DNA from: Sideroxydans sp.
Lineage (GTDB): Bacteria > Pseudomonadota > Gammaproteobacteria > Burkholderiales > Gallionellaceae
Reading direction: 5' to 3'
DNA: 36,589 bases
Assembly (NCBI GenBank): GCA_028687425.1
Contig: JAQUAD010000028.1
Location: 1 to 36,589 of the forward strand
How positions within the stretch are numbered: the first letter of the stretch is position 1; every line of letters begins with the position of its first letter. Position numbers and translations under genes: made by a program. Below are positions 6,672-9,758 of this stretch, in pieces. The notes under the pieces were generated by a model. It was not told the origin of the DNA, searched no databases, and saw only the letters and a program-made list of their open reading frames with translations.

Positions 6672-6748
6672 GGGCCCTTAGCTCAGTTGGTTAGAGCAGA
6701 GGACTCATAATCCTTTGGTCCACGGTTCAAGTCCGTGAGGGCCCACCA
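6672..6748 (+). tRNA. tRNA-Ile2 (anticodon CAU, lysidine-modified)
   Basis: The acceptor stem GGGCCCT (6672-6678) pairs with AGGGCCC (6738-6744); discriminator A is at 6745 and CCA is encoded at 6746-6748. The anticodon loop CTCATAA carries CAT at 6706-6708, and the T-loop contains GTTCAAGTCC. A CAT anticodon could mean Met. However, the body, with CCCTTAGCTCAG, GGTTAGAGCAG and ACTCATAATC, matches the pattern of E. coli ileX rather than elongator or initiator Met. It therefore should read AUA after TilS converts C34 to lysidine. The start is 7 nt past the rpoD stop, indicating processing out of a shared transcript. Confidence 0.9.
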
Positions 6749-6750
6749 AT

Positions 6751-6788
6751 AAACAAAAAGCCTCGTAGTGATGCGAGGCTTTTTGTTT
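6751..6788 (+). terminator. Intrinsic terminator of rpoD-tRNA-Ile2 (left copy)
   Basis: A perfect 15-bp stem, 6751-6765 with 6774-6788, has GC-rich GCCTCG/CGAGGC in the core and A-run/T-run on the flanks. The loop can close further with a G-T and an A-T pair to leave GTGA, a GNRA tetraloop. The symmetric A/T flanks mean it works in both directions. An almost identical copy lies at about 8803-8838, after the AIPR gene. Confidence 0.93.
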
Positions 6789-6791
6789 GCG
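6755..6791 (+). repeat. 37-nt direct repeat, left copy (terminator)
   Basis: These 37 nt are identical to 8805-8841 and in the same orientation. They comprise most of the terminator hairpin plus GTTTGCG. Identity ends abruptly at 6792 on the right side. On the left it fades with one A inserted in the A-run of the other copy. The two copies bound the AIPR gene and are offset by 2050 nt. Confidence 0.95.
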
Positions 6792-6932: not shown

Positions 6933-8759
6933 ATGTCGACCGAGTTACTCGAAGAAAAAATTGATGAGCTAATCAGTGAATCAAAAAAATATTCTGGAAT
7001 TGCCAGACATTACATGTTTGGGGCGGTATGTTGTAAATACATTTTCTTTGATGGTGAATATTCTTTCCCAACTTTCAATAAGTCATTTGTCGACGGTGCA
7101 GGCGATGGGGGAAATGACTTTATATTCCGCGATGCTTCAGGGCGATATAGTGATGAGAGGCTTATTATCGTTCAGTCAAAATATTTTGACTCGTTCAATA
7201 ACGCCTATGACTACGAAAAGGAAGCTAGTAAAGCTATCGATACATTCCATAACTTTGATGGGAAAAAGAATACTGATCAATACAGTAAAAAACTTAGGAA
7301 GGTGTACCAAACAGTTCTAGACGATCTTGAAACTGATGCGCCGATAATACTCATTGCTTTTGTATCAACAACAAAGCTGTCGGAGAATAAAAAGAATGAA
7401 ATTAAAGAGCACTTGAGTGCATTCAATTCTGAGTTTGATTACGAAATCTATGATGTTAATGACATCGAAGCTCATATACGCAGAGTAGAGGAGCCGAAAG
7501 AGTATGTTCCTGAAGATGTAATTTCATTTAATAAAGATGAAGGGATGATTCAAACCACTGTTGAGTCGAAAGGTCTGTCCTTGTCGGGATTTGTTGTGAA
7601 TATTCCAGCAATAGAACTAAAGAGATTGTTTGATAAACATGATGCGGAAGGGGGATTGTTTGCGCAAAACAATCGATTCTTTCAGCCATTGAAAAAAATC
7701 GATGACAAAGTAAAAAAGTCTATAAGCGGTAATCCTGAGCTATTTTGGTACAACAATAATGGTGTAATTATTGCGTGCAAAGACGTTATTCAAGATGGAA
7801 ATAAGTTAAAGCTATACGATTTTTCAATAATCAATGGTTGTCAAACAACGAACCTGCTGAGTAAGACAATTCAGCAGTTGGATAACGTGAAAGTTCTTAC
7901 GAAAATCATCAAGGCGGGGGATAACGCTGAATTAATTAGCCGAGTTGCTGAAGCATCAAATTCTCAAAAGCCAATTAAAGATAGGGATTTAAAGTCGAAC
8001 ACCCCAGAGCAGCGAAAGTTAAAATTTGAGCTTGCCTCACATAACCCGCAAGTGTTTGTAAGTATTAAAAGAGGCGATAAGATCAAGAAAGCGGCAGGCT
8101 TTGAGGCGTGGCAGTACACAACAAACGATGTTGTTGGCAAATTGGTACTTTCATTTGATTATCAAATGCCTGGTACAGCCAGAAGTGCAACATCTAAGAT
8201 TTTTTCTAATGATCATGTATACGAGAAAATTTTCTGTCATGGTTTTGATGTCGATAAAGTGTGCGATCAACTTTTGTTGCTTGATGCAGTCAGGAATTTT
8301 ATTAAGGTGTCAGCGGAATCGGGGGAGGAGAAAGGATACTCATCGAGAATTATGGATATCATTTCCAATGGTGAGACATATCTAATTGCAATGATTGGGT
8401 ATATCGCAAAGCTTCTTCAGAAGAGTGAGTTGATTAAAATTGATGAAGTATCTAAAGGCAGTGCGGACTATCTCAATAGTGAGTTATCGAGCGAGAAGTC
8501 ATCTGGGTATTTTCTAAATAAAAATCATGATGATTTTGAGCAGTTGCTAGAAGGACTTTTATTGGAACTGACGCAATCGATTGTTGATCGCGCGATTCCT
8601 GAAAATGTGGCTCAAATATCCAATTTCATGAAATTGGACTCAAATTATCGCACCAAGGTATTGCCCGAATTGAAGAAGGAGTTTATTAATCCCGTAAGAA
8701 AAAAGGCCTTTGTTTTGAACTACGGGGAAGTATTTATTCTGAAATTTTCTGGCGCTTGA
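6933..8759 (+). CDS. AIPR-family protein with PD-(D/E)XK-like N-terminal domain; candidate stand-alone phage-defence gene
   Basis: The 608-residue product carries the hallmarks of the AIPR family (abortive infection phage resistance). These are LFAQNNRFF at 242-250, FWYNNNGVII at 271-280, IINGCQTTNLL at 299-309, and an R-x-AEASNSQKPIKDRDLKSN stretch ending near 356. The N-terminus has VDGAGDGGNDFIF at 53-65 followed by IIVQSKYF at 78-85. This D...QxK arrangement resembles Mrr/PD-(D/E)XK nucleases, with D62, Q81 and K83 as likely active-site residues. No membrane segment or signal peptide is visible. The start ATG at 6933 follows GGGGGA at about 6922-6927. The 141 nt upstream hold only a weak -10-like TAAAAT at 6890-6895. 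There is no partner methylase, helicase or second toxin gene beside it. AT-rich codon use and flanking repeats point to horizontal acquisition. Defence by nucleic-acid cleavage is inference from the family. Confidence 0.86.
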   Translation: MSTELLEEKIDELISESKKYSGIARHYMFGAVCCKYIFFDGEYSFPTFNKSFVDGAGDGGNDFIFRDASGRYSDERLIIVQSKYFDSFNNAYDYEKEASKAIDTFHNFDGKKNTDQYSKKLRKVYQTVLDDLETDAPIILIAFVSTTKLSENKKNEIKEHLSAFNSEFDYEIYDVNDIEAHIRRVEEPKEYVPEDVISFNKDEGMIQTTVESKGLSLSGFVVNIPAIELKRLFDKHDAEGGLFAQNNRFFQPLKKIDDKVKKSISGNPELFWYNNNGVIIACKDVIQDGNKLKLYDFSIINGCQTTNLLSKTIQQLDNVKVLTKIIKAGDNAELISRVAEASNSQKPIKDRDLKSNTPEQRKLKFELASHNPQVFVSIKRGDKIKKAAGFEAWQYTTNDVVGKLVLSFDYQMPGTARSATSKIFSNDHVYEKIFCHGFDVDKVCDQLLLLDAVRNFIKVSAESGEEKGYSSRIMDIISNGETYLIAMIGYIAKLLQKSELIKIDEVSKGSADYLNSELSSEKSSGYFLNKNHDDFEQLLEGLLLELTQSIVDRAIPENVAQISNFMKLDSNYRTKVLPELKKEFINPVRKKAFVLNYGEVFILKFSGA

Positions 8760-8802: not shown

Positions 8803-8838
8803 CAAAAAAGCCTCGTAGTGATGCGAGGCTTTTTGTTT
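8803..8838. terminator. Bidirectional terminator between AIPR gene and LysR gene (right copy)
   Basis: The stem AAAAAGCCTCG at 8805-8815 pairs with CGAGGCTTTTT at 8824-8834, with the same GTGA-type loop as the left copy. It lies between two convergent genes and has a T-run on both strands, so it can end both the AIPR transcript (plus) and the LysR transcript (minus). Confidence 0.88.
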
Positions 8839-8841
8839 GCG
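8805..8841 (+). repeat. 37-nt direct repeat, right copy (terminator)
   Basis: Identical to 6755-6791 in the same orientation. To its left the A-run is one base longer (AACAAAAAAG at 8801-8810). To its right the sequence diverges immediately at 8842. It ends 11 nt before the stop of the convergent LysR gene. Confidence 0.95.
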
Positions 8842-8852
8842 GAATACGAAGT

Positions 8853-9758
8853 TCAAGCCAGCTTCAGCACCTTCTCCACATGATCCAGAAACGCGCGCGT
8901 CTTGCTCGGCAGGAAGCGGCGCATCGGCATCACGGCCCATGCGCTGACGGAAGGGAAGCACCAGTCCGGTAGCACGCGCACCAGTCTTTTATGTTTCACA
9001 TCCTCTTCCGCGAACGGTACGGGCAGCATGCCGATGCCTGCGCCGTCCAGTATCAGTTGCTGGATGACGCTGATGGAGTTCAGTGTCATGCGGCCGGGCG
9101 GGACGCCTTGCCATTCTTCCTTGCCGCGCAGTAGTCGCCAGGGCAGCGCTTGTCCGTTCTCTGCGCCCATGCGCAATGCGGTGTGGTGTATGAGTTCATC
9201 CGGATGTTGCGGGGCGTGATGTAGTGCCAGATAGATGGGGCTGGCGTAGAGGCCGAGGTGTTGTTCGTCCAGCTTGCGGGCGACCAGCGTGGAATCGTTC
9301 GCCAGCTCGCCCATGCGGATGGCGAGGTCGAAGCGTTCGCCGATCAGGTCGACCAGTCGCGAACTCAGGTCGAGTTCCAGTTCGATCTCCGGATAGGCTT
9401 CGATGAAGGTGGCGAGTGCGCGCGACAGGCTGCGTCGCGCGTAGTCTTCGGGCATGGAGACGCGCAGTCGGCCTCTGGGTTGCACGTCCTGGCTGCGCAC
9501 GAAGTCCTGTGTGGTGACGACTTCTTCTGCGACGCGGCGGCAGTGGTCGAGGAAGGCTTGGCCGAACTCGGTGAGCGTCAGGCGGCGTGTGGTGCGGATC
9601 AGCAGTTTCTGTCCCAGCGTTTCTTCGAGCTTGCTCAAACGGCGAGAAACCGTGGCTTTGGGCATGCCGAGTTGTTCTGATGCGCGCACCAGACTGGCCT
9701 GCTCGGCAATGTTTGCGAACAGGAGCATGTCATCGGCTGAGATATTAGTTTGTTCCAT
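8853..9758 (-). CDS. LysR-type transcriptional regulator
   Basis: The 301-residue product has the LysR layout. An N-terminal winged helix-turn-helix (about 1-60) contains SLVRASEQLGMPKATVSRRLSKLE. After a linker helix, a periplasmic-binding-like effector domain follows (about 90-295), beginning GRLRVSMPEDYARR. It is the AaeR/DsdC-like general type that commonly controls the divergent neighbour. It diverges from the pirin gene across 89 nt, so it probably regulates the pirin-yceI-yceI-OYE-glutaredoxin group and itself. The effector is unknown; the redox nature of the targets suggests an electrophile, quinone or oxidant. The C-terminus lies next to the right copy of the duplicated terminator. 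Confidence 0.93.
   Translation of the reverse strand: MEQTNISADDMLLFANIAEQASLVRASEQLGMPKATVSRRLSKLEETLGQKLLIRTTRRLTLTEFGQAFLDHCRRVAEEVVTTQDFVRSQDVQPRGRLRVSMPEDYARRSLSRALATFIEAYPEIELELDLSSRLVDLIGERFDLAIRMGELANDSTLVARKLDEQHLGLYASPIYLALHHAPQHPDELIHHTALRMGAENGQALPWRLLRGKEEWQGVPPGRMTLNSISVIQQLILDGAGIGMLPVPFAEEDVKHKRLVRVLPDWCFPSVSAWAVMPMRRFLPSKTRAFLDHVEKVLKLA

Follow-up and report, generated by a model that had tools for sequence, protein, structure and literature searches.

AIPR proteins are widespread and are listed in catalogues of defence genes. Whether such a gene might protect a bacterium with no partner beside it, and how it came to its place, are the questions raised by a locus of Sideroxydans sp. 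(GenBank assembly GCA_028687425.1, contig JAQUAD010000028.1), analysed here within a stretch of 36,589 nucleotides that we call the window. A preliminary description of this DNA had reported an AIPR-family gene of foreign composition with AT-rich codons, a nuclease-like N-terminus carrying D62, Q81 and K83, and no methylase, helicase, ATPase or toxin partner adjoining it. It had proposed a candidate defence role and had held a self-sufficient AIPR gene to be unusual. All of these points are borne out below except the last. The gene and its core are:

6933–8759, plus strand: AIPR-family gene, 608 amino acids, ATG start (open reading frame with PF10592, PADLOC AbiU and PHROG 1841 matches)
7659–8426, plus strand: AIPR core, residues 243–498 (PF10592 and conservation)

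Membership of the family is given by Pfam, PF10592 (AIPR) covering residues 243–498 of the 608-aa protein with E = 1.2e-30 and 107.7 bits against a gathering cut-off of 25. The candidate defence role by family is given by two further models. PADLOC AbiU (PDLC02357) covers residues 10–477 with E = 9.8e-36, as a match to the protein model only, and PHROG 1841 (‘Abi alpha-like abortive infection mechanism’) matches with E = 1.7e-48. The family-wide residues of the core (N246, R248, NNG at 275–277, NGxQT at 301–305, N343 and Q345) are all present and are invariant or at least 90% conserved in 28 sequences. Those invariant in all 28 are N246, R248, N275, N276, I299, N301, G302, Q304, T305, N343 and Q345. 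The alignments used (A4, A5 and A6) hold the window protein plus 27, 15 and 19 sequences, picked by score and completeness from 70 loci.

The AIPR family profile matched no solved structure at E up to 1. The NGxQT of the core aligns with DGQHR of DndB (PF14072); since the hhalign comparison of the two profiles falls short of significance (0.5%, P = 0.11, compared with 0.1% for a reversed profile and 0.0–0.2% for ten shuffles; one of the 14 DndB rows, L213, whose locus is cut at the contig start, is out of frame), a link between AIPR and DndB is not established here. Three other candidates were rejected. Membership in MzaE (NF041935, MZA system) reached E = 1.7e-6 with 26.9 bits against a cut-off of 1050, and no mza partner genes are adjacent; an Exo70_C match (E = 0.0036, below cut-off) and a collagen-adhesin PDB match (E = 0.021) were taken as chance.

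The setting of the gene is defined by the following features:

6672–6748, plus strand: tRNA-Met (CAT), the landmark of the insertion
6755–6791, plus strand: left 37-nt terminator repeat, directly behind the tRNA (100% identical to the right one)
8805–8841, plus strand: right 37-nt terminator repeat, separating the AIPR gene from LysR
8853–9758, minus strand: LysR regulator, the native right neighbour at the empty site of genomes G032, G016 and G018

The foreign composition is clear from the GC content, which is 0.374 in the AIPR gene versus 0.594 in the window outside the insert, where the lowest value among sliding windows of 1827 nt (step 100 bases) is at least 0.555. At third codon positions it is 0.374 versus 0.722 in rpoD. 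To the left of the gene lie tRNA-Met and rpoD (named by eye from the sequence), and to the right the LysR regulator, then pirin, YceI and FMN oxidoreductase genes; no methylase, helicase, ATPase or toxin gene adjoins it. It is the single AIPR match in its genome. In a simple scan no sigma-70-like promoter was found just upstream (4 found versus 6.0 expected).

The AIPR gene is a one-gene insert, and three relatives have the corresponding site empty. The bounds of the insert, the two terminator repeats, are new relative to the preliminary description. The 25-nt core of the repeat, searched with up to two mismatches, occurs at exactly two sites in the 2.79-Mb draft genome, and the backwards control gave none. 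G032, G016 and G018, all of the same genus, have a single terminator behind tRNA-Met, with LysR next. When the window flanks were joined across the insert and compared with these empty sites, they matched in 170/189, 168/189 and 167/185 aligned bases, respectively. The insert, 2.0 kb long, is filled by the AIPR gene and leaves no space for an integrase. Most other second copies at the tRNA-Met site include a tRNA 3′ end; the right terminator copy of the window is without one, so that the insertion may have taken another route, for example recombination between terminators. Given that the genome is a draft in 119 contigs, a small chance is left that the insert is a misassembly at the repeat.

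The tRNA-Met site could be taken from 24 of 33 same-genus relatives (in G013 the sequence breaks off within the tRNA, and in G002 it continues for about 0.25 kb beyond it). LysR synteny behind the tRNA is seen only in G032, G016, G018, G006 and the window, the other relatives carrying other genes there. A second tRNA 3′ end lies further along the contig in eight of the 24 (G006, G007, G014, G015, G023, G025, G028 and G029), at intervals of 1.6 kb in G006, 1.1 and 1.2 kb in G014, 1.1 kb in G023, 1.3 kb in G028, 0.65 kb in G015, 5.3 kb in G029 and 16.6 kb in G025. Another genome, G027, has a terminator-only second copy like that of the window, with an interval of 2.2 kb. Copies of the 3′ end of the tRNA are not confined to the site; the empty-site genome G016 carries one on a different contig.

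In these relatives the site is used by other defence-type genes. SoFic-type Fic genes fill intervals in G006, G014 and G028, the one of G006 standing between tRNA-Met and LysR (PADLOC SoFic, E = 8e-105), and the interval of G027 holds a nucleotidyltransferase gene (PADLOC candidate type PDC-M05A). Type I restriction genes lie no more than about 3 kb from the tRNA in G003, G004, G011 and G015, and further off in G028 (by eye). In a genome of another genus of the family, a HicA–HicB pair (L226, G139:C128, 349–935) sits in a 0.8-kb interval between tRNA-Met and a second 3′-end copy. Integrases lie directly behind tRNA-Met in G009 and G024. Several same-genus sites hold ordinary or unclassified genes, and a 279-aa ORF in the 1.1-kb interval of G023 (L055, 844–1683) is matched by no Pfam or PADLOC model at E 0.001.

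Two arrangements deserve separate mention. L056 (G014:C11:129500-134005) carries the tRNA-Met 3′ end plus terminator twice in succession; a Fic gene precedes the first copy, short ORFs separate the two and a RhuM-family gene follows the second, an order that looks like stepwise accretion. In G007 (L067/L077, contig C2), tRNA-Met seems to be split (matches 1–57, 1–34 and 35–79), with further 3′ copies about 30 kb away.

One may speculate that, in this bacterial family, integrase-free defence cassettes of about 0.7–2 kb dock at the tRNA-Met site behind rpoD, bounded by tRNA 3′-end and/or terminator copies and swapped in and out by an integrase acting in trans or by terminator recombination, the AIPR gene being one such cassette from a Bacillota-type stock; we advance this general scheme as a doubtful one. 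In the literature, nothing on this tRNA site as a defence hotspot was found beyond a title on Burkholderia pseudomallei islands (PMC2612704).

From where might the gene have come? With the gene's own genome counted each time, AIPR proteins are present in 16 of 158 genomes at family level, 38 of 399 at order level and 9 of 369 at class level; leaving the gene itself aside, the matches are remote, with best E values of 1e-14, 1.4e-17 and 2.7e-14. No close relative of the window AIPR was found, the best reaching 37% identity over a part. The nearest full-length relative is an Enterococcus faecalis plasmid protein (WP_064686966.1; 31% identity, residues 3–602, E = 2e-47), and other near relatives (L119–L134, 29–37% identity) belong to Clostridia, Streptococcus, Bacillus, Mammaliicoccus, Erysipelotrichaceae and a few Bacteroidota. 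AIPR relatives occur in 14 of 50,697 phage records and 80 of 72,556 plasmid records; a single-protein scan of viral contigs matched eight stretches, none of which encodes a relative.

In a tree of 37 proteins, the window protein falls within a 19-member group (support 100/100) as sister to the other 18 (99/98, midpoint rooting). The named hosts of these others are all Bacillota, Bacteroidota or Mycoplasmatota, and one Enterococcus plasmid and three viral contigs complete the group. Other proteobacterial AIPRs fall outside it, which leaves the window protein as the only proteobacterial member sampled, within 37 rows and with a named-genome scan whose patterns were built on the window and a single Enterococcus protein. 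L151 and L152, relatives on viral contigs, fall in a clade separate from that of the window protein. Taken together, the AIPR gene was most likely acquired horizontally.

We then consider the N-terminal part of the protein, whose features are:

6933–7502, plus strand: Mrr-like nuclease domain, residues 1–190, aligned part about 26–89 (hhalign versus Mrr_cat)
7104–7118, plus strand: DGGND motif, codons D58 to D62 (conservation)
7173–7181, plus strand: QxK motif, codons Q81-S82-K83 (conservation)

D62, Q81 and K83 stand at the residues given in the preliminary description, and D58 belongs to the same motif. Beyond the motif alone, the nuclease-like character of this region is seen as profile–profile homology. 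A profile of 20 N-termini compared by hhalign with a profile of 12 Mrr_cat domains (12 of 18 Mrr_cat matches, alignment A7) gave 92.3% probability and P = 5.6e-7, or 94.4% and P = 8.7e-8 when limited to residues 20–115, whereas the controls gave 0.2% (reversed) and 0.0–0.7% (20 column-shuffled profiles). The stretch aligned with Mrr_cat (PF04471) spans 54 columns, and DGGxD and QxK align with the Mrr motifs. In single-sequence Pfam scans with E up to 1, Mrr_cat was matched by 9 of the 20 N-termini (weakly, best E = 0.0012) and Mrr_cat_2 by five; the own N-terminus had no Mrr_cat match in that scan, and unrelated families reach similar E values in one or two N-termini by chance (DUF5783 0.00045, Exo70_C 0.00073). 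Two matches of the N-terminal profile to solved structures (E 0.4 and 0.87) were also taken as chance.

Conservation was followed at three depths. D58, G59, G60, D62, Q81 and K83 are invariant in the 16-member close subfamily. In the 28-sequence alignment G60 and D62 are invariant, and D58 and Q81 are conserved in at least 90%. Across 15 diverse AIPRs, D62 and Q81 never vary and D58 hardly does; K83 does vary (L080, L084, L108), so that some AIPRs may be without nuclease activity. These data support a relationship of residues 1–190 to Mrr-type PD-(D/E)XK nucleases, the fold and the catalysis being predicted. Makarova 2012 (PMC3506569) places a HEPN RNase at the AIPR N-terminus. HEPN is absent among the best 25 of the 28 Pfam families matched by the 20 N-termini, and the Mrr_cat profile match would speak against such an RNase at this position.

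Is a partner gene usual elsewhere? We surveyed 20 loci of close relatives, genes in other genomes being defined as the longest non-overlapping ORFs rather than by a gene finder. Five have RM genes within 6 kb, 14 were scanned (36 nearest ORFs), and L130 was dropped for doubtful ORF calls. In the five, four carry a C5 methylase: L126 together with an Eco47II-type enzyme, L147 together with a BsuBI/PstI-type enzyme, L148, and L123 at a distance of 4.2 kb. The fifth, L146, has a FokI-type nuclease and Vsr directly upstream. Around the 14 others, no Pfam or PADLOC model with E up to 1e-5 matched more than one of the 36 neighbours (among the best 25 of 53 and the best 25 of 154 families, ordered by count), hence no recurring partner. 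Defence genes among the scanned neighbours include a SMODS cyclase, a SLATT effector and a GajA/OLD-type ATPase.

Stand-alone relatives are known besides. In Salmonella phage RE2010 the AIPR gene, annotated ‘prevents superinfection’, is flanked by a DinI-like gene and the portal gene. The partner-free kin in RE2010 and on Enterococcus plasmids, with the neighbour survey, rule out the stand-alone AIPR as exceptional: homologues are not always partnered, and a single-gene locus is not unusual. Two gene arrangements were noted on the way. On the viral contig L146 (42–3158), a gene with a FokI cleavage domain is followed by one for Vsr and then by the AIPR gene, and the Vsr and AIPR genes share a few bases. 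In Streptococcus sp. ‘caviae’ (L120, 4467–6720), a small HTH gene, possibly a regulator, ends a few bases before the AIPR start.

The starting points for a mechanism are direct observations, namely the family, the profile-level nuclease homology, the conservation of catalytic-type residues and the lack of an adjacent partner. We consider it probable that the locus is a horizontally acquired stand-alone AIPR defence gene, inserted at the terminator behind tRNA-Met, which would act by abortive infection. The AIPR core (about residues 243–498) would be the sensor or lock, recognising an infection signal or being released by it. The Mrr-like PD-(D/E)XK domain (D58/D62, Q81, K83), the putative cutter, would then cut nucleic acid, most likely DNA. 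The cut would stop the phage and probably the infected cell too. With no linked methylase to protect the host, cutting would be expected to need a gate. This could be an infection signal, which means abortive infection and is the reading we prefer, or the state of the DNA.

Gating by the DNA itself would correspond to a type IV-like restriction enzyme, whose Mrr-like domain cuts incoming DNA bearing foreign modifications with neither an infection signal nor an abortive step. The Mrr_cat homology would suit such an enzyme, and so would the lack of a linked methylase, as expected where only modified DNA is cut. We nevertheless think it unlikely: there is no match to a DNA-reading domain, the rest of the protein being AIPR core, the family-level annotation is Abi and not restriction, and a C5 methylase encoded in the own genome would itself modify host DNA. 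That methylase lies on contig C45 (L210, G000:C45, 322–3661) with a neighbouring Vsr-like ORF (by eye) and a 434-aa ORF, and the three perhaps make up a type II restriction system, the family match being for the methylase alone. An unlinked partnership may be imagined, in which the AIPR protein is an accessory or back-up when this C5-methylase RM system fails. Besides the presence of the methylase and the Vsr-like ORF, the five of 20 close relatives within 6 kb of RM genes would fit a helper role there, and Makarova 2012 (PMC3506569) describes AbiU1/AIPR as frequently RM-associated. Such a role is improbable in our eyes, since 14 of the 20 close relatives have no such partner or recurring family among their scanned neighbours (one of the 20 was outside the scan), and since the neighbourhoods of L126 and L147 own a restriction enzyme, so that AIPR is not the missing enzyme of those two.

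The gene could also be an inactive passenger that a mobile element left behind on its way. An insert of 2.0 kb without integrase, no obvious promoter in the simple scan and the lack of close relatives would agree with this. It is very improbable given that the reading frame is full-length and that all residues invariant in the subfamily and in the 28 sequences are intact. The stand-alone defence gene gated by infection is the reading we retain.

What does the locus add? Stand-alone AIPR genes were already known, the AbiU and PHROG 1841 models covering the protein, and the insertion site is the more original part. Surveys already count AbiU among defence systems; in Salmonella Typhimurium, for example, a link with a prophage integrase was reported for 61% of cases (PMC9958689). 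The finding refines known biology and opens no new kind. Among open-access literature titles no mechanistic study of an AIPR protein was found. With an intact motif, no adjacent partner, a defined site and three empty-site relatives, the locus is a clean object for asking whether AIPR protects alone, and it suits equally the question of whether the Mrr-like site is needed for protection. The tRNA-Met site may in addition serve as a guide to further small defence genes in this family of bacteria.

Compared with known systems, the window protein matches both AIPR (PF10592) and PADLOC AbiU. The lactococcal AbiU locus is described as two genes, abiU1 and abiU2 (PMC3985639); the window locus differs in having no second gene, its neighbours being tRNA-Met and LysR. 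With MzaE of the MZA system the AIPR core is common to both, whereas the window gene stands without adjoining mza partners. Mrr-type enzymes pair their nuclease with a DNA-reading domain. The likeness to them lies in the N-terminal D...QxK stretch, whereas no Mrr DNA-reading domain was matched in the window protein, the nuclease-like part being joined to the AIPR core instead. The AIPR of the P2-like Salmonella phage RE2010 is likewise a single gene of the same family, PHROG 1841 matching the window protein too, but differs in sequence (24% identity over 73% of the query). AIPRs of Bacillota and gut anaerobes belong to another host phylum, while the window gene is chromosomal and lies behind tRNA-Met. 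On Enterococcus plasmids, as in the window, the AIPR genes have no restriction-type partner among annotated neighbours, and WP_064686966.1 of the E. faecalis plasmid shares D58, D62, Q81, K83 and the core residues with the window protein, within the same 100/100 clade.
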